Assembly: GCF_001654865.1 (NCBI RefSeq)
Contig: NZ_LXEO01000025.1
Span: 62,001-126,000 of the forward strand
Source of the DNA: Buttiauxella noackiae ATCC 51607
GTDB taxonomy: Bacteria > Pseudomonadota > Gammaproteobacteria > Enterobacterales > Enterobacteriaceae
Length of the DNA stretch: 64,000 nt
Reading direction: 5' to 3'
In this document: positions 25,936-45,012 of the stretch, in pieces
How the letters are laid out: every line of letters starts with the position of its first letter
Numbering within the stretch: position 1 is the first letter of the stretch
Notes under the pieces: model-generated
The model's input: the letters and a program-made list of their open reading frames with translations, nothing else
Database searches by the model: none
Told to the model about the DNA's origin: nothing
Translations under genes and position numbers: made by a program

Positions 25936-25952
25936 AAACAGATCCCTGAATC

Positions 25953-28520
25953 CTATGAACAGGTCGCACTCGCCACGACGATCGCCTGAGTCAGGCTTTC
26001 AGGCGGTAAGGTAAATGGTGCGAAACACTGTGATCCTTTGCCCTCGCCCCACTGAATCAGCAGCTTTCCCTGGAGTGGCAAGCCGCTGAGGTAAATTTGC
26101 CCGTCATCGCCGACCATACTGGTGATGCCCGTGGTTTCTTCGCGCACCACAGAGCCGAACGGTACCGCTCGCCCACCACGAGTTACGGTGATGATTGCCC
26201 GCACGCCCACGTGCGCCTTAAATTCCGCACGCACCAATGCGCCTTCCGTAGGCACCACACTGCTGACGTTGTTTTCAATGTCGGTGTGGTTATCCATGGT
26301 GTTGGTATCGAGAGCGATACGGTTGTGGCGATATACCGTGGCGTAAGGCATTACCGCGTATCCGCGCCAGTCGGTTTTCACCCCGGTCTGGTTTTCGACG
26401 CCAACCCCGCTTGCTCCCGGCGCTTTGATTAACACGTTGGTGTCACCAAGCGGCTGGCTAAACGTGATGCCATCGGCGTGCCCCACCGCGCCGCCCGAAG
26501 CCTGCCAGTTGTAGTCGTGTTGGTCGCGGTCGTAGTTGTAGCCCAGCCCCAATGTGCCGTAAGTAGCCTGCCAGTTAGCCGTGACACTTCCGCTGTAACC
26601 GTTAGTGTTGCTGTGACCTTGAGTGACGCTGTAATTAAGGTTTCGGTCTTCAAGTAATGTGCCGCCGATACCTGTTTGCACGGTGGCATCGCCATTGGCG
26701 TTGTTACTGGCAGCAAAAGTGGCGTAAGCGCGGTCGATGGTGCTTGTGCGCGAATAACCATGCCCCAGCAAGGTGCTAAATGGCACCGAAAGGTTAAAGG
26801 CCATAATGCGATCGCTATCGGCGATCCCGACGGATTTGCTCCACGACATCGAGAGTGAGTAGCTGATCCCGCGCCAGCCGCTGGCATATCCGGCCTGATA
26901 CCAGGTGTTGTTCTGGCTGGTTTCCCAGTAAGTTTGCTGGCTGCCTGAAACATAGAGTGACCCGTAATCACCCAGTGATTGAGAAACGTTGATTTGAAAT
27001 CGCCCGCGCTTGCTGTAACGCAAGTTGTGGTAGCTCTGCACAACCGGTTCATCTTTGCGTCCACCATCCGTTTCGTCTGCGTATTCGTAGCCTTCGATAT
27101 TTTTGTATGCCACCTCATCAAGCGTATAAAAACCACGCGTGGAATAGCGGTAACCCAACAACTGGAAGTTAGTGCCATAACCGCTGAGGGATTTGGCGTA
27201 CAGGAATCGTAGCGACTGGCCTTGATGCTCGCTGTCATCTGCAAGTCGGCTGCGGGCGTGGGTAATATCCATTGAAAGCGCCCCCCACTCCCCGAGGTTT
27301 TTCCCGGCCCCCAGCGCAACGGAGGTGTAGTCTTCGGCAAGCTGAGTGCCACCATAGGCGGTAAAACCGTAGGGTAAACCCGCATTCAGCGTGGCCTGGG
27401 TGAAGAATGGCGTATCCTGCTGGTTGCTTCCGCTACGGAAATCCCCGGCTACCAGGTCGAACTTCAGCCGCCCTTCCCGTTGCAATAACGGAACGGTGGA
27501 ATAAGGCACAGTGTATTTTTGCTGGGTACCATCTTTTTCTTCGACAGTGACCTCCAGGTCGCCGCTGGAAGAGGTGGAATTCAGGTCACTGATGGTAAAT
27601 GCACCCGGTGAAACGTAGCTTTGGTAAATCACAAAACTGTTCTGGCGAATGGTGATTTTGGCGTGGGTACGCGCTATACCGCGTACCGTTGGCGCGTAAC
27701 CTTGCTGACTGTCGGGGTACATACTGTCAGCCGAATAGATGCGCGCCCCGCGAAATCCCAGACTGTCGAACACATCGCTACCCGTGTTGCTGTCGCCTAA
27801 TACCAGCTCGCTTTTGAGTGGAATAATCGTCCGTTGCGCATAGGTGCTAATGTTGTTCCAGCTGTTAGCGTGGTAGCCATCTCCACGAGTGTAGTTCCAG
27901 GCACCGCTGTTACGCAGCCGCCAGGCTCCGTAGTTCAGGCCACTTTGCAGGCTTAAATAATAGTTATCGTCGTCGCTGCCATGGTTGCCGGTAAAGCTGT
28001 AATTGAGCAGCGCAGCCGGAATCCCTTCGTCCCACTCCTGCGGCGGTATATAGCCCCGGGCGCTGTTAAGCAGCGATGCCTGCGGCAAGCTGATATCCAG
28101 GCGTAGTTTGGCAAAATCAAAATTCGTCTCAGAATCAGGGATCAACAACGCGAGCGGCACACATTCCCCGGACTTAAACTTCGCAAGCGCCGGATAAGCG
28201 AGCATGTTCAGGCCCAGGCGCTTCAACCAGTCAGTGTCCAGGCACGGCACCAGGCCGCTCGATTTTGCTTTTCCGCCACTGGCATCGCTGGCAATAAAAC
28301 GGAGATCCTGGGTCGAGATAAATTCAACGTTACGCCAGATGTCCACGCGATAAACACCCGGTGCCTGATGGCTGCCTTTTTCAAAACGCGACAAATCCGC
28401 CATCGCAGCATCTTCTACCGACAAAAACCCAGGGTTAAAGTAGCTTTCCCCGGAGCTGATTACTGGCCACAGCGCGGCCATTATCATCGCTGCAAGCGGG
28501 GTGACTGACTTGTTGATCAT
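25953..28520 (-). CDS. fimD: Outer-membrane fimbrial usher FimD
   Basis: 855 residues from ATG 28520, which has AAGGA ten bases upstream; an in-frame TTG at 28544 would extend it by eight residues. Signal peptide, N-terminal chaperone-binding domain ('[23 protein letters not shown]'), barrel and plug ('[23 protein letters not shown]'), and two C-terminal domains ending with a Cys pair ('[12 protein letters not shown]', 'VASATCS'). It exports and polymerises FimA, FimF and FimH. It lies 34 bp after fimC and 17 bp before fimH on the same strand. Confidence 0.95.
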
Positions 28521-28554
28521 CTGCCAGATATCCTTATTGCGCAAATTACCTGCA

Positions 28555-29250
28555 TTACAACATTACGCCCGCTTGCACAGGTGTCACCGCGCCATAGTCA
28601 TTGACGGTCTGGAAGTAGATAGCACCTTTTAGCGCGGGCGAAACCGCCACTTGCGACACACTTTTTGGCGCCACCAGGGTATTAGCCAGTTTCTCGTTGC
28701 CAATTTTAAGATTGACGGTGCTGACATAATAAGGAGACGCGTTGTGAATGCTCAGTAGCTTGCCGTTGCGACTAAAGCGCAGTTGCTTCAGCGCCTCTTC
28801 TGGCTGCATTTGCAGGTTTTTAGGGCGCACAAACAGCTTGATGCGCGACAAAATTGCCAGTTGCAGTACGTTGCTGCCGTCGAGATTATTTTTATCGACC
28901 GAAGGAATCGCTTTCACGTTCACCCAGAAAATAGTTTCGCGGTCTGTTGGCAACGGTGGCCCGGCGTAAATAATACGCAGTGTGTTCTCGCTCGATGGCT
29001 CACTAACAAAAAGCGGAGGCGTGACAATAAAACTTTTATCTCTGGCACCTGCACTATTTTCAATCCACGAGTTCACCAGAAAACGCTCTTTATTATCGCT
29101 ATTATTAATTGAGAGCGAGGTTTGTTTTGCCTCGGCAGGATAAATAACCCGTGTCGCACCCAGAGCAACGCCCCCGGCAGCTTGAGCATTAAAGCACAGC
29201 ATTAACAGGCACAACATTATGGCCGAGCCTTGTTTAAATAAAGTCGTCAT
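28555..29250 (-). CDS. fimC: Periplasmic fimbrial chaperone FimC
   Basis: 231 residues, matching Salmonella FimC ('[27 protein letters not shown]', '[22 protein letters not shown]', '[15 protein letters not shown]', '[13 protein letters not shown]'). It captures subunits as they enter the periplasm and lends its G1 strand. ATG 29250 is chosen; the codon before it is GTG and no strong ribosome site is seen. It follows fimA after a 117-bp gap that contains a terminator-like hairpin. In Salmonella a fimI gene lies at this position; none is present here. Confidence 0.94.
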
Positions 29251-29325
29251 CACACCGCACCATCATTATTACTATTATTAAAATGTTCAATTCAGGAATA
29301 ATAAATTTCTGTTCGTCAATAAAAG

Positions 29326-29345
29326 AAGCCTCATTTCTGAGGCTT
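29326..29345 (-). terminator. Attenuator-like hairpin between fimA and fimC
   Basis: AAGCCTCA / TGAGGCTT arms with a 4-nt loop, followed on the minus strand by CTTTTATT. It lies 22 bp after the fimA stop inside the operon. A partial terminator here would give much more FimA message than assembly-protein message. Confidence 0.75.
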
Positions 29346-29367
29346 GCGTTATCCCTACAAAATTTGA

Positions 29368-29919
29368 TTATTCGTATTTCATTACAAATGTCGCATCAGC
29401 GTTGGCCTGGCCTGCTGTTGCGATGGCTGCAGTAGATTTATAGCGTGCGGTGAACGGCAAGGTGTTCGTCCCGTCAATCAGTGTCTGCGCGGTGGAGAAG
29501 ACAGAACCATCCGGGGTCAACACTTTCGATTTGCTATCGAGGATTTCGATACCGACGCCGCCTGCCGTGGTGCTGTTGTCACTCGAGTTAACCGCCAGAA
29601 GCGTAGGGTCGGTGCCGTCTGTCTGGCCTGAGAATGAGACAGAAGCCAGGGTGGAGACCGTGGTGTCACAATCGTTAAGCACAATGGTGAATGGGATCTG
29701 CGCGGAGGTGTCACCCACTTTAGTAAACGCCGCCGTACGGTATTGGCCCAGTTTCACCGTTTGATCGGAAGACTGCGTGCTCACCGCACAGGCCGCATTC
29801 ACCAGCTCACCTTTAAAGTGAACCGTACCGCCATTTACAGTGACTACATCGGCCTGTGCTGCACCGCTTACTAATGCAATACCTGCAACCAAAGAGGACG
29901 CAATTTTGCTGAATTTCAT
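29368..29919 (-). CDS. fimA: Major type 1 fimbrial subunit FimA
   Basis: 183 residues, close to Salmonella FimA: signal peptide [23 protein letters not shown], then '[38 protein letters not shown]', '[20 protein letters not shown]', and the C-terminal '[14 protein letters not shown]'. The two cysteines form the pilin disulfide. AAGGA precedes the ATG by seven bases. It is the first gene of the operon; the promoter in the AT-rich region upstream is the expected target of FimZ. Confidence 0.95.
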
Positions 29920-30344
29920 CGAGATTCCTTTAATTATTTAATTACCCTTTTTGAATAATGCATCCTTCATTATTCCAGTGAATAACCAGGGCCGTAGATA
30001 GTCAACCCCCTCCCCTCAATCCTTAAGGAGACATTTATTTATCGTCATCAATGAAGTCTAAATTAATATTTAAAACACCATCTCCTCGACGATGAATAAT
30101 TTAAGTTAAATAAATATTTAATAACATGTGAAAAACCTTTATCTCATCTCAGTAATGTCCTATTAAGTTCTAAGATATCGGCCTGTGACTTTCGGATCGG
30201 TGAGTGATGCCAACGAAGAAGCACCATGAAGAGTGCTCCTGGTGAATGAAGCAGATAAAACCTGGTACACTTAGCGCCAATTCAAGATATTCTTAGCAAA
30301 TTGTTTTTAAGCCGCTAATTTAATGATTCACTGGATCTGCCCTG
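29920..30344. other. Divergent promoter region of fimA and the MscS-family gene
   Basis: 425 bp without a gene. It is AT-rich near fimA. A palindrome TCCTTAAGGA lies at 30020-30029, and a short AGCAC/GTGCT hairpin lies near 30221. No invertible element with obvious flanking repeats, as in E. coli fimS, was found, which fits the FimZ/FimY type of control. Confidence 0.6.
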
Positions 30345-32765
30345 ATGATACCAAAAATGTTAAAAATGCCGCTGCTGCTGGCATTACTGTCTTGTTTAAT
30401 GGTGATGCCTTTTACGTCTCATGCGGATGACTCTACCGGGCAAACAGCCACTGAAGAACCGGTTAAGATCAATGCCAGCACGGTAATTCCCGCGTTGCAA
30501 AAGCGCCTGGATTCACTCAAGCAGCGAGTATCCACGGCAAAAACTGATAAACAATTCACCAGTCTAAATGACGATTCACAAAAATTGGTGAGTGAAGCCG
30601 ATAAGCTTGCCGTTGCACTGGCACCGCAATTAACGCAGGTACAGGCACAACTGGATGTTCTTGGGCCGGCACCGGCGCCAGGGGCACTGGCTGAAACGCC
30701 GCAAGTTGTTAGTCAACGCAAACAACTAAACAGCAGTAAAACCTTGCTCACCACACAAATCGAGCAAACCAAAGCCATTGCAGTTGCCGCGCAAAACCTC
30801 TCTTCGCAAATCTCTGGATTGCGCCGTGATGCGCTAAAAACACAAATTGCCCTAAATACCGGCAGTATTCTTGGTGAAAAATTCTGGTCACCCGTTTTTG
30901 AACCCAACGACAAAGACGCTGCACGCTTCGGTGAATTTGGCACTCAGATCAGTGATGCATGGGACCAGGCCTGGAGCGAGGGATGGCGACCAGGTACCGC
31001 TATCTATCTGTTATTAGCGCTGGGGATTGGAGTATTTGGTCGTTTCGGGCTGGATAAACCAATGAACTGGGTTCTGCCACGCTGGCTGCCGCAAGGCCGT
31101 TTTCGTCGCAGTTTCCTCGCCTGCTTCACAACCTTAAGTACCACACTGACGCTGGGTATCAGCATGCAGTTGCTGTGCTACACCTTCACGCGCCTGCCTG
31201 ATACCTCACCCTGGGTTAATGAGTTTGCCGGACAACTGGTCGAGTTGACCTATTTTTCCGCGGTGATTGCCGGTCTTGGCATCGCATTACTCTCTAATAG
31301 CCATCCTTCATGGCGTCTGCCGGGTATTGCCGACCCGCTGGCAAAAACGCTTGCGTCATTCCCGATTTTACTGGCAGCCTTCATATTTATCTTCGGGATC
31401 ATCGAGCAGTTGAACTCGTTGGTTGGAGCGAGCATCGATGCCACATTATTTGGTAATGGCCTGGCCGCTTTACTGGTTGCGCTCAACTGCCTGATTGCAC
31501 CTGTTCGCGTCAACCGGATACGCAGGCAAATGCGTGCTGAAGGTGAACAAACAGAAGCGCGTTCTACCGTTGCTGGCCTCATTCATCTCGTCATCAGCCT
31601 TACCGCTTTTGTTATCCTGCTGGCACTGTTGATTGGCTACATTCCACTGGCCCGTTTCGTCACCTTTGAATTGTTGTGGATTGGCCTGGTGGTTTGCAGC
31701 CTGTATCTGCTGATTCACTTTGTAGTGGACTTGTGTGAAGCGGTCTTCTCCCCGTCAACACACAGCGGGAAAATCCTTAAAAGCACGCTGAGTCTCAACG
31801 ATCGCCATCTGTCACTTGCCGCAACGTTGTTCTCAGCGGTTGGGAAAACATCACTGCTGGTGATGGCTGCGGTAGCCCTGCTTAACGGCACCTTCGGTAC
31901 CACAACGCCGATGGAACTGCTGACGAAAATCGCGGATATGTGGGGCGGCAAAGGCCTCGAAGGGATGAACATCATCCCGGCACATGCACTTAATGCGGTG
32001 CTGTGTCTGGTGGTGGGCTGGTATGTACTCCGTTCCACACGCCGCTGGCTCGATAACGATTTCCTGCCAAAAACAAATATGGACCGTGGCCTGCGTGCTT
32101 CGCTGGTCACACTGTTCACCAACGTCGGTTACGTGCTGATTATTATGCTCACGTTGTCGATGCTCGGTATTGAATGGAACAAACTGGCATGGATAGTCAG
32201 CGCCCTGTCGGTCGGTATCGGTTTTGGCTTGCAGGAAATTGTGAAGAACTTTATTTCCGGTTTGATTCTGTTGACCGAGCGTCCGGTAAAAGTGGGCGAT
32301 CTGGTGAGTATAAGCGGCGTGGAAGGCGATATTCGCCGCATCAACGTACGTGCGACCGAAATTCAATTAGGCGACAAATCCACGGTTATTGTGCCGAATT
32401 CACAGCTAATTTCGCAAAACGTCCGTAATGCCACGATGGGAAATGCGCAGGGTGTAGCAACGATATCTCTGACTTTCCCATTGGATATCGACCCTGAGCA
32501 GGTGCGTAATTTACTGCTCGAAGCGTATAACCTGCATGAATCAATTCTGGAAAACCCTCAGCCCTCAGTCAGCTTTAAAGAACTGGGGCCTACCGGGATT
32601 GTGCTGAGCGTTACCGGTTATGTGAATAGCCCGCGAATGGTGAGTTCAACGCGCAGCGATTTGCTGTATGAGATCCTCAAAATGCTGCGCGCGGCAGGCA
32701 TTAGCCTTAGCCAGACGCAAACAATGATCCTTGAGCAGCCAGCGAAAGTGGCGGTAGCGGAATAA
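30345..32765 (+). CDS. MscS-family mechanosensitive channel with N-terminal DUF3772-type domain
   Basis: 806 residues. A signal peptide (~1-27) leads to a periplasmic coiled-coil region (~40-190) rich in Lys, Gln and Ala ('LQKRLDSLKQRVSTAKTDKQF'), then several membrane spans (~215-600). The MscS pore and beta domain are at the C-terminal end: 'LAWIVSALSVGIGFGLQEIVKNFISGLILLTERPVKVGDLVSISGVEGDIRRINVRATEIQLGDKSTVIVPNSQLIS' type sequence starts near residue 614. It probably opens under hypo-osmotic stress. It is far longer than MscS (286 residues) and is not one of the six E. coli paralogues that I recognise. Confidence 0.88.
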   Translation: MIPKMLKMPLLLALLSCLMVMPFTSHADDSTGQTATEEPVKINASTVIPALQKRLDSLKQRVSTAKTDKQFTSLNDDSQKLVSEADKLAVALAPQLTQVQAQLDVLGPAPAPGALAETPQVVSQRKQLNSSKTLLTTQIEQTKAIAVAAQNLSSQISGLRRDALKTQIALNTGSILGEKFWSPVFEPNDKDAARFGEFGTQISDAWDQAWSEGWRPGTAIYLLLALGIGVFGRFGLDKPMNWVLPRWLPQGRFRRSFLACFTTLSTTLTLGISMQLLCYTFTRLPDTSPWVNEFAGQLVELTYFSAVIAGLGIALLSNSHPSWRLPGIADPLAKTLASFPILLAAFIFIFGIIEQLNSLVGASIDATLFGNGLAALLVALNCLIAPVRVNRIRRQMRAEGEQTEARSTVAGLIHLVISLTAFVILLALLIGYIPLARFVTFELLWIGLVVCSLYLLIHFVVDLCEAVFSPSTHSGKILKSTLSLNDRHLSLAATLFSAVGKTSLLVMAAVALLNGTFGTTTPMELLTKIADMWGGKGLEGMNIIPAHALNAVLCLVVGWYVLRSTRRWLDNDFLPKTNMDRGLRASLVTLFTNVGYVLIIMLTLSMLGIEWNKLAWIVSALSVGIGFGLQEIVKNFISGLILLTERPVKVGDLVSISGVEGDIRRINVRATEIQLGDKSTVIVPNSQLISQNVRNATMGNAQGVATISLTFPLDIDPEQVRNLLLEAYNLHESILENPQPSVSFKELGPTGIVLSVTGYVNSPRMVSSTRSDLLYEILKMLRAAGISLSQTQTMILEQPAKVAVAE

Positions 32766-32768
32766 CGC

Positions 32769-32804
32769 GAAACGCCGCTGATTGTTAGCAGTCAGTGGCG
32801 TTTC
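32769..32804 (+). terminator. Hairpin after the MscS-family gene
   Basis: A 13-bp stem (GAAACGCCGCTGA / TCAGTGGCGTTTC, one G-T pair) with a 10-nt loop begins 4 bp after the stop. No clear T-run follows, so it may act as an mRNA-stabilising or weak terminator structure. Confidence 0.55.
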
Positions 32805-33002
32805 ATGCGTAAGCGCCTCCATCAAAGAGAGCACAAAACATAATCACACTAAATAACTCAGCTTTATCTCATTCAGTAAATTGATTTAAGTCAACATTAT
32901 GGAGGCTCGTCGGTCGCATTATCTCGCTCCGTAGATATTCCACTTCGTATATTCACAATCAGTGAATAGTGTGAAGGTAATTATTCAATAAGAGAGTTAA
33001 TG

Positions 33003-33494
33003 ATGAGCAAAATCAGCGTAATCGTAGCAGCCCTGGTGGGCGGTTTAGTATTATCCCCGGCAGCAATGGCGCTGGATCTGTCCAACGGCAACTGGCAAGG
33101 CGCAGGCGCTCCAGTAAAAGTGGCAGTAAAAAATAACCAGGTCACCATCAACGGTAAGAAAGCTACCCGCACTATCAACAATCCTGATTTCGCTGAGTGG
33201 AAAGGCGCGGGTTATACCCTGAGCTTTACCCGTTCAGAAAACCAGGTTTCCGCTGAATGGGCTAAACAACATGCGCATGGTGCGCTTGTACAAGCTGCAA
33301 GCACTGCAACAACCAACAGCAAACAAGCGTTGAAAGCTCAGGATCTTAAAGGCCTGAACACCTCTGGCGTAGAAAAGAAATTGCTGGCTGAAGGCTGGAA
33401 AGAGGTTTACCCGTACACCGAATATACCCGCGACGGCAAACGTGTAAAAATTCAGTACCGTGCAGATTACGTTTCTTCTGTAACAGTAGAATAA
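33003..33494 (+). CDS. Uncharacterised secreted protein
   Basis: 163 residues, not recognised. Signal peptide MSKISVIVAALVGGLVLSPAAMA, so the mature protein of ~140 residues should be periplasmic. It is Lys/Ala/Asn-rich, has no cysteine, and contains 'WKGAGYTLSFTRSENQVSAEW' and a C-terminal block 'GVEKKLLAEGWKEVYPYTEYTRDGKRVKIQYRADY' that looks like a small beta-rich domain. The second of two adjacent ATGs is used because AAGAGAG then lies six bases upstream. It is monocistronic, between a channel gene and a convergent transporter gene, and ends in a shared terminator. Function unknown. Confidence 0.75.
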   Translation: MSKISVIVAALVGGLVLSPAAMALDLSNGNWQGAGAPVKVAVKNNQVTINGKKATRTINNPDFAEWKGAGYTLSFTRSENQVSAEWAKQHAHGALVQAASTATTNSKQALKAQDLKGLNTSGVEKKLLAEGWKEVYPYTEYTRDGKRVKIQYRADYVSSVTVE

Positions 33495-33518
33495 AAAAAA
33501 CCGGTCACGGAGGACCGG
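33493..33518 (-). terminator. Terminator of the CstA/BtsT-type gene
   Basis: CCGGTC / GACCGG stem with a 6-nt loop is followed on the minus strand by eight T. On the plus strand it may also serve the gene ending at 33494. Confidence 0.88.
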
Positions 33519-33536
33519 CTTTCAGAACATCGATAA

Positions 33537-35336
33537 TTACGACAGCAATTCAATCGGCTCATCATTCCCGCGAGCGCGCCATAGCACAAACCAGCGTTGA
33601 ATCGACGCCACCATAATCACCAGCCCCAACAGCACCATCACTATTGAAATCGTCCCGTTGAAGATGTTGAAGCCTTTGGCTGCACTGTTGAAATAGACGT
33701 TTTTCACCATCCAGTAAGCTGCGTAGTTTACCGTCACATACAGATAAGACAGTGGCACCAGGCAGGTCAGCACGTACCAGCGTTTTTCTGACATACGCAG
33801 AATAATGGTTGCACCAATCATCAGACCGATTGAAGCCATTAGCTGGTTAGATACGCCAAACAATGCCCACACTGAGTTGATATCGCCTGAGTTCAGCAGA
33901 TAGCCCCACAATAGACAAGCGACGATACTGCAACCAATGGCACCAGGCATCCAGTTAGTGCGTTTGAGCGGAGGCCAAATATCGCCGAGGAAATCTTGCA
34001 GCAAGTAACGCGCAACGCGAGTACCGGAGTCTACGGCTGTCAGAATAAATACCGCTTCAAACATTACTACAAACTGGAAGAAGTAGGATGCCAGGTGGCT
34101 GAACCACGGAATACGCGTAAAGATATCGGCCATACCAACAGCAAGTGTTACCGCCCCACCAGTACGCCCATAGAGGTCAAGACCGATAGATTCGCTAAGT
34201 TGCGGCAAATTCACCACATCCATACCAAGGCCAGCAAACACTTCACGCGAGGAGTTAATGGCAAAGTAGTCAGCAGGATGTAACGAGGTGGCAGCGATGA
34301 GCGCCATCACGCCGACAACACATTCCGCAAGCATCGCACCAAAAGCAACGGGCAGAATATCGTTCCATTTGTCGATTTGCTTAGGCGTCGTACCGGAACC
34401 GATAAATGCATGGAAACCGGAAATTGCGCCGCAGGCGATGGTGATAGAGATAAACGGCCACACCGGACCTGCCAGCACAGGGCCATTACCATGGATAAAC
34501 TGCGTTACCGCCGGGAACTGAATTTCCGGGTTAATGAAAACCACACCCACGACCAGCGCACCGAACACGCCGATTTTCATAAAGCTTGAGAGATAACCAC
34601 GTGGTGTCAGCAGCATCCAGACAGGCAGCGCGGTGGCAAAGAATGCGTAGAAAGGCAGGACCAGGCTTACTGTTGAGGCACGCAGGCTCAGCCACTCACC
34701 AAATGAAGATTCCTGAATATACGGGCCAATTATCACGCAAGCGAAAATAACAATAATCCCCACCCAGGTCGCACCACGCATACTGCCGGTATAACGCTCC
34801 CAAAGCCCGACGCAAATCGCCACAGGAATAGTCATAAACACCGCGAAAGTACCCCATGGGTTACGTTCGAGTGCATGCACTACCACCATCGACAAACCCG
34901 CCATGGTAATGGTGATGATGAACAGCATCGCAAGCCCGGTACACCAGCCTGCCACCGGGCCAAGCTCCGCTTTTGCCACTTCTGAGAGTGACTTCCCGCG
35001 GTGTTTCATCGAGGCGAAAAGCACCACGGTGTCATGCACCGCGCCGCCCACCACACAACCGATAAGCAACCATAAGAAGCTCGGCAGATAACCGTATTGT
35101 GCCGCCAGAACCGGGCCGACTAACGGCCCCGCCGCCGCGATTGCAGCAAAGTGGCTGCCGAAGTTAACCCATTTTTTTGTCGGGACGTAGTCTTTGCCGT
35201 CCTCAAGAATATGTGACGGTGTGATTTCTGAGTCATCAGCATTCAGAACTTTACGGACGAAAAACACCCCGTAAAGACGATAACAGATGGTCAGAATACA
35301 CAAAGTCGCGATAACAAAAGTTAGTGCGTGTTGCAT
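33537..35336 (-). CDS. CstA/BtsT-family transporter, predicted BtsR target
   Basis: 599 residues with about 16 hydrophobic spans. Hallmarks of the carbon-starvation family: 'YVPTKKWVNFGSHFAAIAAAGPLVGPVLAAQYGYLPSFLWLLIG', 'CGAISGFHAFIGSGTTPKQ', 'FEAVFILTAVDSGTRVARYLLQDFLGD' and 'LFGVSNQLMASIGLM'. CstA and BtsT of E. coli (about 700 residues) import pyruvate with protons and have been linked to peptide use. This protein is about 100 residues shorter, mostly at the N-terminus and in one loop, so it is a distinct paralogue. ATG 35336 is chosen because GGAG lies six bases upstream; upstream TTG/ATG codons at 35354/35348 lack one. Three BtsR-type boxes lie 79-127 bp upstream. Confidence 0.9.
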   Translation of the reverse strand: MQHALTFVIATLCILTICYRLYGVFFVRKVLNADDSEITPSHILEDGKDYVPTKKWVNFGSHFAAIAAAGPLVGPVLAAQYGYLPSFLWLLIGCVVGGAVHDTVVLFASMKHRGKSLSEVAKAELGPVAGWCTGLAMLFIITITMAGLSMVVVHALERNPWGTFAVFMTIPVAICVGLWERYTGSMRGATWVGIIVIFACVIIGPYIQESSFGEWLSLRASTVSLVLPFYAFFATALPVWMLLTPRGYLSSFMKIGVFGALVVGVVFINPEIQFPAVTQFIHGNGPVLAGPVWPFISITIACGAISGFHAFIGSGTTPKQIDKWNDILPVAFGAMLAECVVGVMALIAATSLHPADYFAINSSREVFAGLGMDVVNLPQLSESIGLDLYGRTGGAVTLAVGMADIFTRIPWFSHLASYFFQFVVMFEAVFILTAVDSGTRVARYLLQDFLGDIWPPLKRTNWMPGAIGCSIVACLLWGYLLNSGDINSVWALFGVSNQLMASIGLMIGATIILRMSEKRWYVLTCLVPLSYLYVTVNYAAYWMVKNVYFNSAAKGFNIFNGTISIVMVLLGLVIMVASIQRWFVLWRARGNDEPIELLS

Positions 35337-35414
35337 AACCCACTCCATTGCCAAAGATAAAAAGTTCAGCGCTATGCTGGCATGGGTTTAAGAAGCAACA
35401 GGTGGGAGTTTTAG

Positions 35415-35463
35415 TGAGCGGTTAAATGGGGAGTTAAGCGGTTCGATTGCTGGGGTGAGCGGT
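35415..35463 (-). promoter_or_regulatory. Three BtsR-type binding motifs upstream of the CstA/BtsT-type gene
   Basis: On the minus strand: ACCGCTCA (35463-35456), ACCGCTTA (35442-35435) and ACCGCTCA (35422-35415). All fit the published BtsR (YehT) motif ACC(G/A)CT(C/T)A found as direct repeats in the btsT (yjiY) promoter. The first pair is separated by exactly 13 bp, the known spacing; the second by 12 bp. Confidence 0.85.
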
Positions 35464-35478
35464 TTTACTTTTCAAAAT

Positions 35479-35554
35479 ATCGGGTAGAGGCTTACGCCTT
35501 ACCCGATCTACGGCAACTGAATGTAGGGCGGATAAGCGAAAGCGCCATCCGCCG
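35479..35554. repeat. Pair of REP-type palindromes
   Basis: Two imperfect palindromes, 35479-35507 (ATCGGGTA / TACCCGAT arms) and 35523-35554 (GGCGGAT / ATCCGCC arms), lie between the transporter promoter and the end of the cytochrome c gene. Confidence 0.8.
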
Positions 35555-35561
35555 CATTACA

Positions 35562-36803
35562 TTACTTCTCTGGACGCAGCGCTTTCACCTGCTCGGCTGT
35601 CACATCCCCCGGTAAACCACCCCATGTTACGCGCAGGTAATTCACCAGTTCGGCCACTTGTTCGTCGTTCAGACGCTCGCCAAAGCCCGGCATGCTTTGC
35701 ATACTTTCTCCATTCGGGAAGTTCTGCGCAGGTAGGCCATCAAGTACCGAAACAATCAGGTTTTTAGCATCCGGTTGGCGCAGCGTTGCGTTGTTCAGCA
35801 TCGACACTGCAACGTGCGGTTTGCCCTCACCTTCGCGAGCATGACAACCAGCACACTGGTCAAGATATGTCATTCGCCCGGCTTCGTTACCCTGGCCGAG
35901 TTTCGCTGGGGTTGCCGCCGGAGGTGCTTCGCCCATCAAATATGTCGCCATCGCTTTTTGATCGGCAGGCGTCAGATGCTGAGTACTCAGATCAACCACC
36001 ATATGCATTTCGCTAAACGCGCTGCCCTGCGGTGCAATTCCAGTGGTAAGGAATTGCTGTACATCCTGCGGCGTCCAACCACGTTGCGCTAACGCTTTTG
36101 GTGTGATGTCAGGTGCCATAAAGCGCCCTAACTCCCCGCCCTGCATCGCTTTATCGAGCTTCATTTGACCCAATAACCCGCGTTCAGTATGGCATTCGCC
36201 ACAGTGCCCAAGCACATCAGCCAGGTAACGCCCACGATGCCAGTCGGCTGAGTTGCCGGTAGAAATCGCCGGAAGCGGATCTTTGTCATGGAACATAATA
36301 TTCCAGCCAATCAATGCGATACGCTGGTTAAACGGGAAACTCATTTCGTTATCAGGCGTCTTAACATCTACTGCCGGTCGCGTCATGAGATAAGCATAAA
36401 TATCGTCGGAATCCTTGCGCGAAATATTTTTATACGAGGTGTACGGCATGGCCGGGAACAGGTGACGCCCGGTTGGGGTAACGCCTTCGGTCAGCGCTTT
36501 GTAGAAATCATCTTTCGTCCAGCGGCCAATACCGTAATCGGCAGAAGGCGTCAGGTTGCTGCCGTAAATCGTGCCATATGGGGATTCCAGCGGATAGCCC
36601 CCCGCCAGCGGAGCACCGCCAGAAGCTGTGTGGCAAGCTGCACAGTCGGCAGCTTTTGTCAGATAACTGCCGCGTTCGATTTGCTCCTTGCTGGCGGTTA
36701 CTTTTTGCACCGGCCCGTCATACGTGCGGTATTCTCGCCAGTACAAAATGGCGACAATGATGACCACAATAGCCAGCACAATCAGCGCGAGACGCTTTTT
36801 CAT
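35562..36803 (-). CDS. Membrane-anchored three-heme cytochrome c subunit of a molybdenum dehydrogenase
   Basis: 413 residues from ATG 36803, whose first bases overlap the preceding gene stop (ATGA). An N-terminal membrane anchor 'LALIVLAIVVIIVAILYW' is followed by three class I cytochrome c domains with CAACH, CGECH and CAGCH heme motifs and distal Met candidates ('FPAMPYTSY', 'SMPGFGERL'). It resembles the cytochrome subunits of membrane alcohol and aldehyde dehydrogenases. It would pass electrons from the molybdenum/Fe-S subunits in the periplasm to the respiratory chain. A longer ORF begins at 36890 but lacks a membrane-anchor start. Confidence 0.92.
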   Translation of the reverse strand: MKKRLALIVLAIVVIIVAILYWREYRTYDGPVQKVTASKEQIERGSYLTKAADCAACHTASGGAPLAGGYPLESPYGTIYGSNLTPSADYGIGRWTKDDFYKALTEGVTPTGRHLFPAMPYTSYKNISRKDSDDIYAYLMTRPAVDVKTPDNEMSFPFNQRIALIGWNIMFHDKDPLPAISTGNSADWHRGRYLADVLGHCGECHTERGLLGQMKLDKAMQGGELGRFMAPDITPKALAQRGWTPQDVQQFLTTGIAPQGSAFSEMHMVVDLSTQHLTPADQKAMATYLMGEAPPAATPAKLGQGNEAGRMTYLDQCAGCHAREGEGKPHVAVSMLNNATLRQPDAKNLIVSVLDGLPAQNFPNGESMQSMPGFGERLNDEQVAELVNYLRVTWGGLPGDVTAEQVKALRPEK

Positions 36804-37354
36804 TTCACCGCCTCCTTCACCAGCCCCGGTGTTTTCAGCACCACGTCGCGCACCGCTTCGTAATAACGCACGTAGCCTGTGCAGCGGCAAATGTGATTTT
36901 CCAGCGCATGTGAAATCGCCCCTTCTAATTCGTCACGTTCGATAGGCTCACGTTTGAGTTTCTCAACGAAAATCGTCGCTGCGTTCACAAAGCCCGGCGT
37001 GCAGTAGCCGCACTGAAAGCTGTAGTGGTCGAGGAATGACTGCTGAATGGGCGACAGTTCAACCACTTCGCCCTGATCATCGACTTTAGCGTGGCCTTCA
37101 ACGGTGCGGACTTTTTTACCGTTAAAGAAATGAGCTCCGGTGATGCAGGTGCGCACTTCTTCACTGGTGCCGCTTGGGTTATCAACAATCGCTACACACG
37201 CGTGGCAAATGCCCTGCCCGCAGCCCAGACGTGATCCAGTCAGATAGACATATTCGTGCAGGAAATCGATCATCATCAACCCTTCTGGCACATCAATTGG
37301 GCCATACGGTTTGTTATTGATGGTCAGGGTCATTGGTTTAGTTTTGATGCTCAT
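36800..37354 (-). CDS. [2Fe-2S] subunit of a molybdenum hydroxylase (IorA/aldehyde dehydrogenase type)
   Basis: 184 residues. Two [2Fe-2S] clusters are visible: the plant-ferredoxin type in 'RLGCGQGICHACVAIVDN' with 'RTCI', and the helical one in 'QCGYCTPGFVNAA' with 'HICRCTGYVRYYEAV'. It carries electrons from the molybdopterin subunit to the cytochrome subunit. GAGG lies seven bases before the ATG. The gene overlaps both neighbours by 4 bp, so the three subunits are translationally coupled. No signal peptide is present; it is presumably co-exported with the Tat-bearing large subunit. Confidence 0.93.
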   Translation of the reverse strand: MSIKTKPMTLTINNKPYGPIDVPEGLMMIDFLHEYVYLTGSRLGCGQGICHACVAIVDNPSGTSEEVRTCITGAHFFNGKKVRTVEGHAKVDDQGEVVELSPIQQSFLDHYSFQCGYCTPGFVNAATIFVEKLKREPIERDELEGAISHALENHICRCTGYVRYYEAVRDVVLKTPGLVKEAVK

Positions 37355-40140
37355 GGTAATACCTCACGAATTTTTTCAGCACGGACGGGCAAATCACGGA
37401 AACGATGGCCTGTGGCATCAGCAATCGCATTCACAATCGCGGCAACAACCGGGATCATCACGACTTCAGCCATGCCTTTTGGTGGGTCGGTTTCCGAAAG
37501 CGCGGGCAGGATATCGCCAGTCTGTTTCCAGACTGCCACATCACTGGCACGCGGCAGGTGATAACGGTTGAAGTTCCATGTTCCGTTACCGGGTCCGTCT
37601 TCGTAGAGAGGTAAATATTCATGTAACGCATGGCCGATACCCATCGCCAGGCCGCCTTGCAGCTGCCCGGAGACCAGTTCCGGTACAATTAAATTGCCGC
37701 ACTCCATAATTGAGTGATGGTTGAGCAGTTCCACTTCGCCGGTGGAGAGGCTTACCGCTACTTCCGCCAGCGTGCCGACGGCGCTGTAGTAGGTCACCGC
37801 AGCATTGTTGCGCTGCGTTGGCGGGTAATAAACATGTGTGCGCGAAAGTGTGGCGAAATCACCATTGCCGTAGCGCACCGCCAGGGCATCAATCGGCAGG
37901 CGTTTGCTTTGCTGGTTAAAGGTGAAATCGGCTTCCGCCCACTGCCAGCGGTTAAAGACATGGACTGCGGCGCCAGTCATTAACCCCATTTCATGGGCTT
38001 TTTTCGCCACCTGTTCAAGGCTTAAAATTTCCATACCAGCAGCGGTTAAACCACCTTCCACCCAACGAGCATCTTCAATGCGCACCACCAGCGGTGCAGC
38101 CTGGCCACCACCGATGCCGGTGGACCAGATAGCCATTGCCGCCGGCCATAAGCCTTGTTCAAACACTAAACGTGCCGCTTCGCGCGTGCTGTGTGAGAAG
38201 TAATACGCCGAGTTACTGGCACTTGATGGCGAGCAGTACGACGGAGACCAGGATGGATTAGCAGCCAGTTTGTCCTGCTCTTCCTGAGACATAATGTACG
38301 GGTCGCCGCTGGTAACAACTGGCAGAGAACTCCAGTCGGTGACGGAGAAATGCGCTTCGTCTGCCGGTCTACCCAACCATTGTGCACAGAGCACCGATTG
38401 TGATGTTGACATACCAGTGCCCATTTCAGCACCGCTGTGGTACAGCGAAATACGCCCGTCAGCCGCCACTTCCACACGCGCAAAGGAGGTTTCAGCACCG
38501 GTACCAAAGTCTTTTTGCACGCAGCCAAAGCCCACACCGTAACGCTTACCTGGGTTTTTCATTTCAAATTCGGCTTTACGTTCAGCACGTTTGAGCCAGA
38601 TTTCATTTTTCGCCGCTTTCGCCAGCACTTCATCTACACGTATCGCACCAGCAGGAATCGCACCCTGGGTGTTTTTCATGCCTGATTTCAGCGCGTTGCG
38701 CATACGGAATTCAATCGGGTCAATTCCCAGCTTTTCAGCAATTTCATCCACCATCATTTCGGTGGCGGCCATACTTTGCAGCGTGCCGTAACCGCGAGCT
38801 GAACCCGCATCGATAGCGCGGGACGCCACACCGACTGCCGACAAATCGCTTTTCGGGAAGTAATAAATGGATTGTGCAGCCGTTGCGCCCACCATTGAAA
38901 CCGACGGGGTAAAGTTGCTGCGTCCGCCGCCGTTAGCGGTCATATCACCTAAAAATGATTGCAGGATGCCGGTCTTTTTATTTACCGCAATGGTGTAATT
39001 CATGTCGAACGCATGGCGTTTGAGTGCGCTCTGGAACTGCTCGTAACGGTCGTTCGCCAGGCGCACCGGGTGACCGTCGCCATACATCGCGGCAACCGCG
39101 CCATAATACGGGAAGTTGTAGTGATCTTTGGAGCCATAACCCACGGTGTAACATGGATGGAGAATAAGTTGTTTTACCGGCTGCGTGCGTTTTGCCAGCA
39201 TACGCGGCATTTCGTCAGCCACTTCCTGCGGGGACTGCGTCGGCACCACCATATGTAGCGTTTGCGTGGCTTCATCGAACCAGCCGTTGGCGTTATCCGG
39301 CTCAAGGGCAGCGGTGTCGATAGATTGTGTGGTGTAGCGGCGTTGAAGCACCAGCCAGTCTTCCGGCGGGTTCTTAAGTTCATCGGCAATCATGCCTGCG
39401 TAATACATACCTTCCTGATCCAGCTTGCCGCCTTCGCGCCCTTCAGGCCAAACGGGCAAATGCTTTCTCATCGACACCGGGAAAATCGGCATGTCTTTCA
39501 GGCTGGAGAAATGATCGTCGTCTTGTGACGTCGCGCCGCCGACGCGCACAAAGCGGAAGGTGCCCCACGGGTCACGCTCCAGCGGGCCGGTTTGCGCACC
39601 GTACTGAATCACTTCGTCTTTAAATTTCAGTTTATCTTTGGCAAAGCGGAAACGGGCAAAATCGTGGTAAATCAGAATGGCAACCGCCTGGCCGAGATAG
39701 GCCGGCGTTTTACCGGTTGGCAGCAGCATGTCTTCGCCGTAGAACGCCGGGAATGCCAGGCCATCACGCGCCAGATCTTCGGCGGTGACGATGCGATCCG
39801 GTTTCAGGTTATCACCCAATAAAGAAAGATCGATACCGCTAAATAGCCTGTCGGCTTTTGTGGTGCGCAGAATAAAGGCGTGAGCCTGTTTCTGCGGCCA
39901 GTGAGGCATGTCTACCGCGCGAATATCGCGGGCAAAGACTTTCTGCCCCATCACTTTTGATTTGCCGTCGATTCGGAAACGGATGCGCTTGTTTTTGGCA
40001 TCCCAGTTCGGTGAGTGAAGGATTTTTTGTTCAAACAGCGCGGCATAAGCACGGCTATAGAGAGGGGCAAGATACACCGCGACTCCGGCGACCACCGCGC
40101 GTTTAATAAAACTGCGCCGTGATGGATTAAAATTGCTCAT
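37351..40140 (-). CDS. Molybdopterin-binding large subunit, xanthine dehydrogenase/IorB family, Tat-exported
   Basis: 929 residues from ATG 40140. The twin-arginine signal 'SRRSFIKRAVVAGVAVYLAPLYSRAYA' directs folded export. The family architecture is visible: an N-terminal 'KVMGQKVFARDIRAVDMPHWPQKQAHAFILRTTKA' part, central cofactor-binding repeats ('TANGGGRSNFTPS', 'RGYGTLQSMAATEMMVDEIAEKLGIDPIEFRMRNAL', 'GAEMGTGMSTSQSVL'), and the C-terminal 'QGGLAMGIGHALHEYLP' holding the likely catalytic Glu. The substrate is probably an aldehyde or N-heterocycle; it cannot be fixed from sequence. Divergently placed genes encode cofactor maturation proteins. Confidence 0.93.
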   Translation of the reverse strand: MSNFNPSRRSFIKRAVVAGVAVYLAPLYSRAYAALFEQKILHSPNWDAKNKRIRFRIDGKSKVMGQKVFARDIRAVDMPHWPQKQAHAFILRTTKADRLFSGIDLSLLGDNLKPDRIVTAEDLARDGLAFPAFYGEDMLLPTGKTPAYLGQAVAILIYHDFARFRFAKDKLKFKDEVIQYGAQTGPLERDPWGTFRFVRVGGATSQDDDHFSSLKDMPIFPVSMRKHLPVWPEGREGGKLDQEGMYYAGMIADELKNPPEDWLVLQRRYTTQSIDTAALEPDNANGWFDEATQTLHMVVPTQSPQEVADEMPRMLAKRTQPVKQLILHPCYTVGYGSKDHYNFPYYGAVAAMYGDGHPVRLANDRYEQFQSALKRHAFDMNYTIAVNKKTGILQSFLGDMTANGGGRSNFTPSVSMVGATAAQSIYYFPKSDLSAVGVASRAIDAGSARGYGTLQSMAATEMMVDEIAEKLGIDPIEFRMRNALKSGMKNTQGAIPAGAIRVDEVLAKAAKNEIWLKRAERKAEFEMKNPGKRYGVGFGCVQKDFGTGAETSFARVEVAADGRISLYHSGAEMGTGMSTSQSVLCAQWLGRPADEAHFSVTDWSSLPVVTSGDPYIMSQEEQDKLAANPSWSPSYCSPSSASNSAYYFSHSTREAARLVFEQGLWPAAMAIWSTGIGGGQAAPLVVRIEDARWVEGGLTAAGMEILSLEQVAKKAHEMGLMTGAAVHVFNRWQWAEADFTFNQQSKRLPIDALAVRYGNGDFATLSRTHVYYPPTQRNNAAVTYYSAVGTLAEVAVSLSTGEVELLNHHSIMECGNLIVPELVSGQLQGGLAMGIGHALHEYLPLYEDGPGNGTWNFNRYHLPRASDVAVWKQTGDILPALSETDPPKGMAEVVMIPVVAAIVNAIADATGHRFRDLPVRAEKIREVLP

Positions 40141-40342
40141 AAAACATCCCATTTAAAATTATTATTGTCTTTTTTTCAAACAATTATGCGTAGATTTTAT
40201 ACATTTCCGTAGTGAATATAAGTATATATATTTAAGCTAAATCATGTGAGAATTAACATCTCATTTTCATAAAAAAAACATTGTTGCGCAAATTACTCAT
40301 CATATTGCGTAATCAAGAAGGCAGTGAGGAATCCCCCTGAAC

Positions 40343-40915
40343 ATGAAAGCGGGCATCATTATTGCCGCCGCAGGCTGTGCAAAACGCTTCACAGAAGCGG
40401 GCGGCGAAGGCAATAAACTTAACGCGTTGCTCAACAACAGCAGCGTGTTTGCGCAAACGCTATGTAATGCGCTGACTTCCGGCCTGCAAGTGCATGTCGT
40501 GACGCGCCCGGAAAACAGCCAGGTTCAAGCGTTGTGCCGCGCGCAGCAGATTCCCGTCACACTGATTGAAAGTTCTGGATTGGGTGAGTCAATCGCTGCC
40601 GGTGTTCGCGCAACGTCGAACTGGCAAGCCTGGCTGATTCATCTGGCGGATATGCCTTTTGTTCCACCGGCGGTGTTTGTGGCGGTGGCAGAGGCACTGA
40701 AATCTCACACGCTGGTGCGACCATGCGTTAGCACGCAGCCGGGGCATCCGGTGGCCTTCGACCGTAAGTGGTATAGCAAACTCAGTCAGTTAAACGGTGA
40801 CAACGGCGCGCGTGAATTGTTACGTGGCGAGTCAGTGCACCTCATCGAAATTGAAGATGCCGATTCCCAGCGCGATATTGATCTCCCATCACAACTGGTT
40901 CAAAGGAGTGAATAA
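40343..40915 (+). CDS. MocA-like molybdopterin nucleotidyltransferase
   Basis: 190 residues, a single NTP-transferase domain. 'AGIIIAAAGCAKRF' is the nucleotide-binding loop (with Cys in place of a usual Ser/Gly), 'LIHLADMPFVPP' the metal site, and 'QPGHPVAFDRKWY' plus 'LNGDNGARELL' the product-binding motifs. By homology to MocA it would add CMP to molybdopterin to make the cytosine dinucleotide cofactor used by xanthine-oxidase-family enzymes. It is divergent from the dehydrogenase genes and 2 bp upstream of the xdhC-type gene, so it is very likely dedicated to that enzyme. Confidence 0.88.
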   Translation: MKAGIIIAAAGCAKRFTEAGGEGNKLNALLNNSSVFAQTLCNALTSGLQVHVVTRPENSQVQALCRAQQIPVTLIESSGLGESIAAGVRATSNWQAWLIHLADMPFVPPAVFVAVAEALKSHTLVRPCVSTQPGHPVAFDRKWYSKLSQLNGDNGARELLRGESVHLIEIEDADSQRDIDLPSQLVQRSE

Positions 40916-40917
40916 TC

Positions 40918-42471: not shown

Positions 42472-43200
42472 CTACACCGCTTTAAGCCCTAAAGCCTCTT
42501 TGAGACTCTTCAAGTAGCGACGACTTACCGGGACAGACTGCCCGTCGCGCAGCATCAACTCGGCTTGCCCGCCATCCTCAAAGCGGATCTCTTTGAGATG
42601 CACCATATTGACCAGGTATTGTCGATGGCAGCGAACCAGCGGCGTGCGGCTTTCAAGCGTGCGCAACGTCAGCTCAGTAAAACCTTCAGTTCCCTGCGCA
42701 TTGGTGACATATACCCCGCTCATACGGCTGCTGGCGTACATCACCTCTTCCATTTGTAGCAGGTAAATCCGGCTCTGCCCGGTACAAGGAATGAATTTAA
42801 GATCTTCCTGGTTTGGCTCAAGCAGTGTCATATCCTGATCGACGCGCTCATGGCGCAAACGTTGTAGGGTTTTCTCAAGCCGTTTGCTGTCAATTGGTTT
42901 AAGTAAATAGTCGAACGCATGTTCTTCAAAAGCCCGCACCGCGTACTCGTCAAAGGCGGTAAGAAATACGATGTAGGGGCGCTGTTCAGGATCAAGCATG
43001 CTTACCATTTCCAGCCCACTGATGCGCGGCATCTGAATATCAAGAAACACCACGTCCGGATGCAAGCGATGCACCGCGCCAATGGCTTCCACCGCATTGC
43101 CACACTCCCCCACGATGTCAATGTCTGGTTCGTTTTGCAGCATGATGCGTAAATTCTCACGCGCCAGCGGTTCATCATCGACAATCAGCACTTTTAACAT
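42472..43200 (-). CDS. btsR: LytTR-family response regulator BtsR
   Basis: 242 residues, E. coli YehT/BtsR type. The receiver domain has acidic residues 'VDDEP', phosphoacceptor Asp in '[19 protein letters not shown]', '[25 protein letters not shown]'. A LytTR DNA-binding domain follows (~140-240; '[51 protein letters not shown]'). In E. coli it activates btsT in response to extracellular pyruvate sensed by BtsS. The ATG overlaps the btsS stop by 7 bp. Its recognition motifs appear in front of the CstA/BtsT-type gene at 35.4 kb. Confidence 0.97.
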
Positions 43201-44882
43201 GGGGTTTCCTCCAGAGGTAAACGTAGGGTAATACGGGTAAATCGGTCTGACTCATAATCCACTTTAATACCGCAGGCATCGCCGTAACGGGCGCGCAGAC
43301 GTTTATCAACAAGACTCATCCCAAGCCCGCTGGATGTGTTTTTTTCCTGATATAAACCTGCGTTGTCTTCAATAGAAAGCTGCAAATACTCCCCATTCTG
43401 GCAGGCATTAATCGTCACCTCCCCGACACCAAGCAACTGCGAAGTGCCATGCTTGATGGCGTTTTCAACAATGGGTTGTAGCGTGAAAGCCGGTAACTGC
43501 ACTTGCGACAGCTCCTGAGGCACATTCAGTTGCACGCGTAATCGTGACTGAAAACGCGCCTGTTCGATTTGCAGATAAGCATTCACATGCTCAATTTCAT
43601 CGGCAAGAGTCACTATCTCGCTTGGGCGCTTTAAGTTTTTGCGAAAGAAGGTCGAGAGATATTGCACCAGTTGACATGCCTGTTCATTATCCCGACGGAT
43701 AACAGCCACCAGCGTATTCAATGCATTAAACAGAAAATGCGGGTTCACCTGCGCGTGCAAAAGCTTGATCTCTGACTGCGTCAGCATCTGCTTTTGTCGT
43801 TCATATTGCCCCGCTAAGATTTGCGCAGAGAGAAGCTGCGCGATGCCTTCACCCAGCGTGCGGTTAATCGAGCTAAACAAGCGGTTCTTTGCTTCATACA
43901 GTTTGATCGTGCCAATCACGCGGCTATTTTCACCGTAAAGTGGGATAACAAGCGTCGAACCCAGTTTGCAATGCGGGTGCAGCGAACAACGGTAAGGCAC
44001 TTCATTGCCGTCGGCATATACCACTTCACCGCGTTCAATTGCCTGCCAGGTATATTCAGAAGAGATTGGGCTACCTGGTAAATGGTGGTCGGCACCGATT
44101 CCGGTAAACGCCAGCAGCTTCTCGCAATCGGTAATAGCAACGGCTCCGATATCCAGCTCCAGATGGAGTACCTGCGCCACTTTCATACTGTTTTCCTGGT
44201 TAAAACCCCGGCGCAGAATCCCTTCTGTGGAGGCCGCGACTTTTAATGCGGTTGCCGAGAATGCCGAAGTGTATTTCTCAAACATCGCTCGCTTATCGAG
44301 CAAGATACGCATAAATAACGCGGCACCCACGGTGTTGGTAATCATCATCGGAGCAGCGATGCTTTTCACCAGATTCAACGCATCAGCAAACGGGCGAGCA
44401 ATCAGCAAGATAATGCCCATCTGGAAGAATTCCGCCAGCAGCGTAATGCCACCTGCGGTCAAGGGATTAAACAGCAAATCGCTACGCCCACGACGAATCA
44501 ACAAACGGTGCAACAGCCCGCCAAGCAGCCCTTCAACAATGGTGGAAAACATGCAACTTAGCGCCGTCATTCCCCCCATTGAATACCGATGCAACCCGCC
44601 GGTTAAACCCACCAGCCCGCCAACCAGCGGCCCACCGAGCAGCCCACCCATTACCGCGCCAATCGCACGTGTATTGGCGATGGAGTCGTCAATGTGCAGG
44701 CCAAAATAGGTGCCCATAATGCAAAAGATAGAGAAAGTAACGTAGCAAAGTAATTTGTGCGGTAAACGTACTGTGACCTGCATCAGCGGGATAAACAGCC
44801 GAGTTTTACTCATCAACCAGGCGATAACCAGGTAGACGCACATCTGCTGAAGGAGCAGTAACACCAGGTTAAACTCGTACAT
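43194..44882 (-). CDS. btsS: LytS-family sensor histidine kinase BtsS (pyruvate sensor)
   Basis: 562 residues from ATG 44882, matching the E. coli BtsS start [10 protein letters not shown]; a further ATG at 44894 is in frame. The N-terminal 5TM-5TMR_LYT domain (~1-200) is followed by a GAF domain (~220-350, '[55 protein letters not shown]'). The His kinase region holds the phosphoacceptor His in '[25 protein letters not shown]' and the ATPase N-box '[12 protein letters not shown]'. It senses pyruvate and signals to BtsR. Confidence 0.97.
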
Positions 44883-45012
44883 TGCGCTCGCCATTGAGTC
44901 TCAGAGGCGGCGTAACATACACGTTGGCGGCTTAACTTTCTTTGAAGGGTTTCAATAATTTTTGATTTAGTGGGGATGAAAGCAGAAATTAGGACAAGGA
45001 TGGGGGTGTGTT

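Follow-up and report, generated by a model that had tools for sequence, protein, structure and literature searches.

The window analysed here, a 64,000-nucleotide stretch of the Buttiauxella noackiae ATCC 51607 genome, holds a gene for a short transporter of the CstA family that is preceded by three copies of the motif ACC(G/A)CT(C/T)A. This arrangement raises the question of which regulator reads the repeats and what the protein encoded behind them carries into the cell. An earlier reading made from the letters alone (the sequence-only reading) had proposed that the repeats are BtsR boxes, that the btsSR genes located 7 kb away control the transporter, and that the protein is probably a pyruvate transporter. 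In E. coli, BtsR is described as binding two direct copies of this motif, 13 bp apart, at btsT. Based on the analysis below, we consider it highly probable (roughly 0.88) that the three boxes form a BtsS/BtsR operator, that their target is the short CstA-family gene downstream, and that its product would import pyruvate in the role of BtsT. The features on which this reading is built are collected in Table 1.

Table 1. Positions in the window of the proposed target gene, the box array and the btsSR genes
Feature	Position	Strand	Sequence	Basis or remark
Short CstA-family transporter gene, 599 aa (proposed target)	33537..35336	minus		PF02554; ATG 35336 as in relatives
Box 1 (distal)	35463-35456	minus	ACCGCTCA	Motif scan, genome-wide pair search
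Box 2 (middle)	35442-35435	minus	ACCGCTTA	Motif scan, genome-wide pair searches
Box 3 (gene-proximal)	35422-35415	minus	ACCGCTCA	Motif scan, genome-wide pair search
Possible -10 region	35373..35379	minus	CAGCATA	43 bp after box 3 start; guess from pattern
btsR, LytTR response regulator (proposed activator)	42472..43200	minus		Response_reg and LytTR domains
btsS, pyruvate-sensing histidine kinase	43194..44894	minus		5TM-5TMR_LYT, GAF and His_kinase domains

The three direct copies that had been placed 79-127 bp upstream of the gene are exact matches and do lie there when counted from its ATG, and both claimed spacers were found: in the direction of the gene, 13 bp separate box 1 from box 2 and 12 bp separate box 2 from box 3, with start-to-start steps of 21 then 20 bp. 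The motif itself needs only a minor correction, in that all three window boxes carry G at its G/A position. The array has the 13-bp spacer of the two-repeat BtsR operator used in the sequence-only reading, and it also has the form of a three-repeat LytTR operator, which the text of PMC11347149 defines by three direct repeats of 8 bp separated by 12-13 bp. Taken singly, the boxes carry no significance, since a motif scan found nine in the window against 6.3 expected; it is the spaced array that is significant. Between the boxes and the cytochrome c gene, a REP-like inverted-repeat sequence was seen by eye at 35480-35560.

Chance repeats were ruled out by genome-wide pair counts together with the triple scores of random pieces. 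The exact pair with a 13-bp spacer occurs once in the 4.8-Mb genome, and relaxing the pattern added no site with one mismatch and 31 with two, as compared with 71 sites (up to two mismatches) for a reversed-pattern control. The pair with a 12-bp spacer gave one site with no mismatch, one with one and 17 with two, and its control gave 60. Both exact pairs of the genome are those of the window array. When 1,492 random 400-bp pieces of the window were scored for their best triple, 1,489 reached at most 19/24 and three reached 24/24; these three are taken to overlap the true site, because the exclusion around it was loose. Furthermore, exact pairs were collected from 159 genomes of the family, and those on the same strand as a BtsT or short gene and no more than 350 bp upstream of it make up 56 of the 57 with a 12-bp spacer and 22 of the 30 with a 13-bp spacer. 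The frequent occurrence before unrelated genes that the sequence-only reading had named as contrary to its proposal was therefore not seen. The only 12-bp pair off target lies in the fossil operator of genome G060 described below. The eight remaining 13-bp pairs comprise two before an apparent BtsT pseudogene in a degraded genome (G028, outside the 70 genomes counted for BtsT), two that overlap in a tandem repeat of G050, one in the G060 fossil operator and three isolated cases. Promoters of cstA, for which gene starts are approximate, had no triple of at least 20/24 (0/17; best score, 18).

The genome contains orthologues of both BtsR and BtsS, as membership in a BtsR regulon requires. BtsR scores 404 bits against a cut-off of 246 with the NCBIfam BtsR equivalog and is 79.5% identical to its E. 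coli counterpart; BtsS is 83.4% identical to E. coli BtsS, and no NCBIfam model for BtsS gave a match to it. The residues reported to contact pyruvate in BtsS, Arg72, Arg99, Cys110 and Ser113 (text of PMC10653868), are kept in the window protein as R76, R103, C114 and S117. The residue matching the conserved His382, named in a passage of PMC3875573, is retained too. As claimed, btsSR lie 7 kb from the transporter, and the genes are on the same strand. The gap exists because a molybdenum-hydroxylase/cytochrome group lies between (35565-41886), with cytochrome c-like, 2Fe-2S subunit and molybdenum-hydroxylase subunit genes on the minus strand, whereas the plus strand carries NTP-transferase and XdhC-like genes. 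Buttiauxella genomes show a distance of about 7-8 kb, and one Buttiauxella MAG a distance of 2.4 kb. The cytochrome c gene was considered as a target of the boxes and rejected, because it shares their strand and is located upstream of them, and no listed frame diverges from the boxes.

The short protein is a member of the CstA family by PF02554 (602.9 bits against a cut-off of 27) and falls below the CstA equivalog NF011590 (477 bits against 1188). It is 98-99% identical over 599 aa within Buttiauxella (99% to B. gaviniae) and about 42-46% identical to CstA and BtsT (about 46% to BtsT, over matched segments). In a tree of 46 proteins, rooted at the midpoint and returned with a long-branch warning from the tool, the short type forms a single clade with 100/100 support, far from BtsT and CstA, and BtsT clusters with three enterobacterial CstA proteins including the Buttiauxella genome's own. 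By its place outside the BtsT clade, the short transporter is not a BtsT (YjiY) orthologue. The earlier description of a short, ~600-residue CstA/BtsT-type paralogue was right as to size and family, and must be revised to a distinct subfamily in a separate clade. We conclude that the short gene probably represents a subfamily standing in for BtsT and not a shortened BtsT. A genome search for btsT, suggested in the sequence-only reading, found none in the Buttiauxella genome, where two CstA-family genes were found, the short gene and a cstA followed by ybdD. Searches of solved structures gave no sequence match to the short transporter up to E = 1, and an AlphaFold2 model based on 34 aligned relatives was discarded (mean pLDDT 39.7, pTM 0.30).

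YbdD is reported in the text of PMC5847655 as required by CstA for pyruvate uptake. No yjiX-like gene adjoins the window transporter, where the next frame is convergent, and 79 of 80 loci (the best 80 of 245) have no YjiX/YbdD-like gene near the short gene at E 1e-5. The convergent frame in the window (33000-33494, plus strand, 164 aa) has no Pfam or NCBIfam match.

Relatives of the short gene were compared in the best 80 of 245 loci, which come from Enterobacterales, Aeromonadaceae, Chromobacteriaceae, Azospirillum and others, and in these loci the register of the boxes is kept, much of the DNA between them being variable. Together with the window and 12 family genomes they give 93 short promoters, a set that includes close kin (several Buttiauxella, Yersinia, Photorhabdus and Azospirillum). 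The steps are 21+20 in 62 of them and 21+21 in 17. Triple scores are at least 20/24 in 73, with 24/24 in 19, and below 20 in 20 (lowest, 17); in some G+C-rich loci, 1-14 of 100 shuffled versions reached the score. Of the best 80 of 245 loci, 60 have btsS as well as btsR in the examined flank and 19, mostly Yersinia and Edwardsiella, have neither; in 40 of the 80, btsR is on the transporter's strand and ends less than 1 kb upstream of it. This proximity, and the presence of BtsR in every sampled family genome with the short type, support the proposal that BtsSR would control the paralogue. Among 217 genomes drawn from the order, a close short-type match turned up in one genome outside the family of the window.

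Two plasmid-borne relatives were also noted. On a Burkholderia savannae plasmid typed as conjugative (NZ_CP013419.1; L169 5001-11773), the short gene has a triple of 20/24 upstream, and behind it, in the same orientation, come the genes pflB, pflA, acetate kinase and pta. A Priestia megaterium plasmid of the Bacillota (NZ_CP140268.1; L168 5004-6812) encodes a short CstA, about 71% identical, adjoining katA; it lacks the triple box (15/24) and branches outside the proteobacterial short clade.

The relation between regulator, operator and transporter was examined in one draw of 159 family genomes, with BtsT called at 80% identity or more, the short type at 83% or more and BtsR at E up to 1e-60. 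BtsT was found in 70 genomes, the short type in 13 and both in none. If the two were independent, zero overlap would have a chance of 2.6e-9 among the 96 genomes with any match, a figure that ignores kinship. BtsR is present in 81 of the 159, that is, in 68 of the 70 BtsT genomes, in 13 of the 13 short-type genomes, and in 0 of 13 genomes with a CstA-family match but neither type. The two BtsT genomes that lack BtsR (G111 and G154) are those whose btsT triples score 16 and 17/24. Their BtsT proteins are the most divergent of the set (80-81%), so regulator and operator may share a common cause of loss. Taken together, BtsSR and the three-box operator appear to be a conserved module, behind whose array stands one of two exchangeable CstA subfamilies.

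One genome of the draw carries an orphan array. G060 has a perfect 21+20 triple after btsS on contig C6 (L167 5095-5548), with no transporter behind it. In Budvicia (L035) the corresponding row is btsS, triple box, short transporter, and then DedA-like, rmuC-like and ubiE-like genes, the last three named by resemblance. The two align as far as the region where the transporter starts, and again from beyond its end, so that 351 bases in G060 stand against 1,923 in Budvicia, and this alignment detected no transporter remnant in the 351 bases. G060 has BtsT on another contig with a triple of its own (23/24), and BtsR on a third. The orphan array is the trace that replacement of a short transporter by BtsT would leave.

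From these observations we infer a mechanism in which BtsS would bind extracellular pyruvate and BtsR would then fill the three 8-bp direct repeats, which should lie on about one face of the DNA because the steps are 21 and 20 bp. BtsR would recruit RNA polymerase to a weak promoter downstream and so activate the gene, and the transporter produced would take up pyruvate, as BtsT does in E. coli. In Salmonella, deletion of btsSR is reported to abolish btsT expression (text of PMC9504724). A scan for the sigma-70 consensus found no promoter at the window array. The pattern CANNATA, to which the possible -10 region conforms, begins 43-44 bp beyond the box 3 start in 23 of the 93 short promoters, and among 31 btsT promoters 54-55 bp after it in eight and 42-43 bp after it in four; the remaining promoters, which are most of them, have no match, nor does the pattern recur at other distances. 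The offset differs between short and btsT promoters by about one helical turn. Upstream of the boxes, E. coli btsT has a CRP-like TGTGATATGAATCACA, seen by eye; a CRP site in the window was rejected, the pattern being at chance level with up to two mismatches and having no match in 25937-36628.

The third box is found in E. coli as well. In the K-12 MG1655 btsT promoter the boxes are GCCGCTCA (-184), ACCGCTTA (-164) and ACCACTCA (-143), with steps of 20 and 21; the 13-bp pair is the downstream one, and the extra box 1 departs from the consensus in its first letter only. One published binding oligonucleotide spans all three (text of PMC4847170). A test was performed in which each promoter was anchored on its best pair and a third box of at least 6/8 was required. 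Such a box occurs at one period, about a double helical turn, in 65 of 69 btsT promoters (68 family genomes plus K-12, with two from genomes lacking BtsR excluded) and in 82 of 93 short promoters, as compared with 2-10 of 69 and 6-20 of 93 at five control offset ranges. Mean scores of boxes 1 to 3 are 7.04, 7.3 and 7.11 in short promoters and 7.74, 7.9 and 7.81 in btsT promoters. Triples of at least 20/24 are present in 68 of the 70 btsT promoters of family genomes: all 30 taken from loci score at least 22/24 (31 with K-12), and 38 of the 40 fetched separately score at least 20. On this comparison of promoters, the third box thus appears to be a general feature of BtsR targets, among them btsT of E. 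coli, and not a local extra.

A fourth position, one period further upstream, scores at least 6/8 in 12 of 31 btsT promoters versus 4 of 93 short ones; its mean in btsT is 5.03 against a background of 3.98. In short promoters, positions one more period up or down stay at background, averaging 3.88 and 4.01 against 3.82. In K-12 btsT (L098) the fourth box is degenerate, GTCACTTA, and stands 20 bp upstream of box 1. At two loci the distance from the boxes to btsT exceeds that in K-12 by more than 100 bp: in L099 (G139) the downstream two are at -287 and -266, and in L175 (G064) box 1 is at -321.

Three other explanations of the array deserve consideration. BtsR might use only two boxes, in line with the E. 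coli description, which would leave the third as a spare or relic without effect. The passages of PMC4847170 and PMC4064291 present LytTR sites in general as pairs of repeats, and several Yersinia loci in which box 1 has decayed to 5-6/8 with boxes 2 and 3 perfect would suit such a scheme. However, the third box recurs in both classes of promoter far above the control offsets, the three boxes are alike in mean score, and the LytTR protein CoxC is reported to require all three repeats for efficient binding (text of PMC11347149). We therefore regard a two-box operator as rather unlikely. There is very little room for the idea that another LytTR regulator, for example YpdB/PyrR, is the main user of the boxes. 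The genome does encode a second LytTR protein (C29:14056-14346), but the YpdB site given in the text of PMC4847170, GGCATTTCAT, is unlike the boxes, and the array tracks BtsR, being absent in the two BtsT genomes that lack it.

It is also conceivable that BtsR controls the gene and that the transporter has another substrate, such as peptides or a different short acid. Peptide transport, too, has been discussed for CstA proteins, and family membership therefore does not settle the substrate. The modest identity of the short protein to CstA and BtsT speaks for another substrate, as does the lack of a nearby small partner gene in all but one of the best 80 of 245 loci. Against this, the short type takes the place of BtsT, one for one, in a system governed by a pyruvate sensor, and on the Burkholderia plasmid it precedes pyruvate formate-lyase genes; it is from this exchange and this context that we infer pyruvate as the substrate. 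We consider a different substrate improbable, and retain the reading of the array as a three-box BtsS/BtsR operator for a pyruvate importer.

Control of CstA-type genes by BtsSR is already known, beyond E. coli too (PMC5552118). The text of that study (Behr et al. 2017) names BtsR targets of CstA type in Yersinia, Xenorhabdus, Vibrio and Aeromonas, with motifs conserved in most species tested; figures aside, it mentions neither a split into two subfamilies nor a three-site operator. It leaves the motif unidentified in A. hydrophila, whereas the Aeromonas short loci here have degenerate triples of 19-23/24. The window shares with the E. coli BtsS/BtsR-btsT system (formerly YehU/YehT-yjiY) an orthologous sensor and regulator, the box sequence, the period, the place before a CstA-family gene and the three boxes. 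In contrast to E. coli, where the target is BtsT, the window target belongs to the short CstA clade and has no adjoining yjiX-like gene; the steps are 21+20 instead of the 20+21 of K-12, and btsSR, which lie far from btsT in K-12, are 7 kb away on the same strand.

Outside the BtsR systems, the operators of RcoM1 and CoxC (text of PMC11347149) likewise consist of three direct 8-bp repeats, spaced by 12-13 bp, to which a LytTR domain binds, as BtsR would bind the window array. They differ in their repeat, TTCNNGCA, and in serving carbon monoxide genes, and the three-repeat mode is presented there as unlike that of other LytTR factors. In Vibrio campbellii, BtsU is reported to be a pyruvate transporter and BtsS/BtsR the sole pyruvate sensor of the species (text of PMC10653868), a pairing that the short type would match if it carries pyruvate.

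The text passages and sections of the literature examined, figures aside, contain no report of a third BtsR site. As far as this literature goes, the three-site BtsR operator (E. coli btsT included), the short subfamily as an alternative target, the mutual exclusion of the two transporters and the fossil operator are new. We lean toward a wider proposal, made with moderate confidence, in which the true BtsR operator, in E. coli and here, would be a three-site unit, and BtsSR with its array would act as a socket for either BtsT or the short type, never both, the short type working without YbdD/YjiX; one genome would keep the operator of a lost transporter. A case described with two sites becomes a three-site one that is directly testable in E. 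coli, where box 1 of btsT, one letter off the consensus, lies within the published binding probe. The family offers a clear example in which a transporter is exchanged while sensor, regulator and operator are kept, and in which an operator is left where the old gene was lost. Finally, a likely CstA-family pyruvate transporter that lacks the small partner reported as needed by CstA may provide a handle on the role of that partner.
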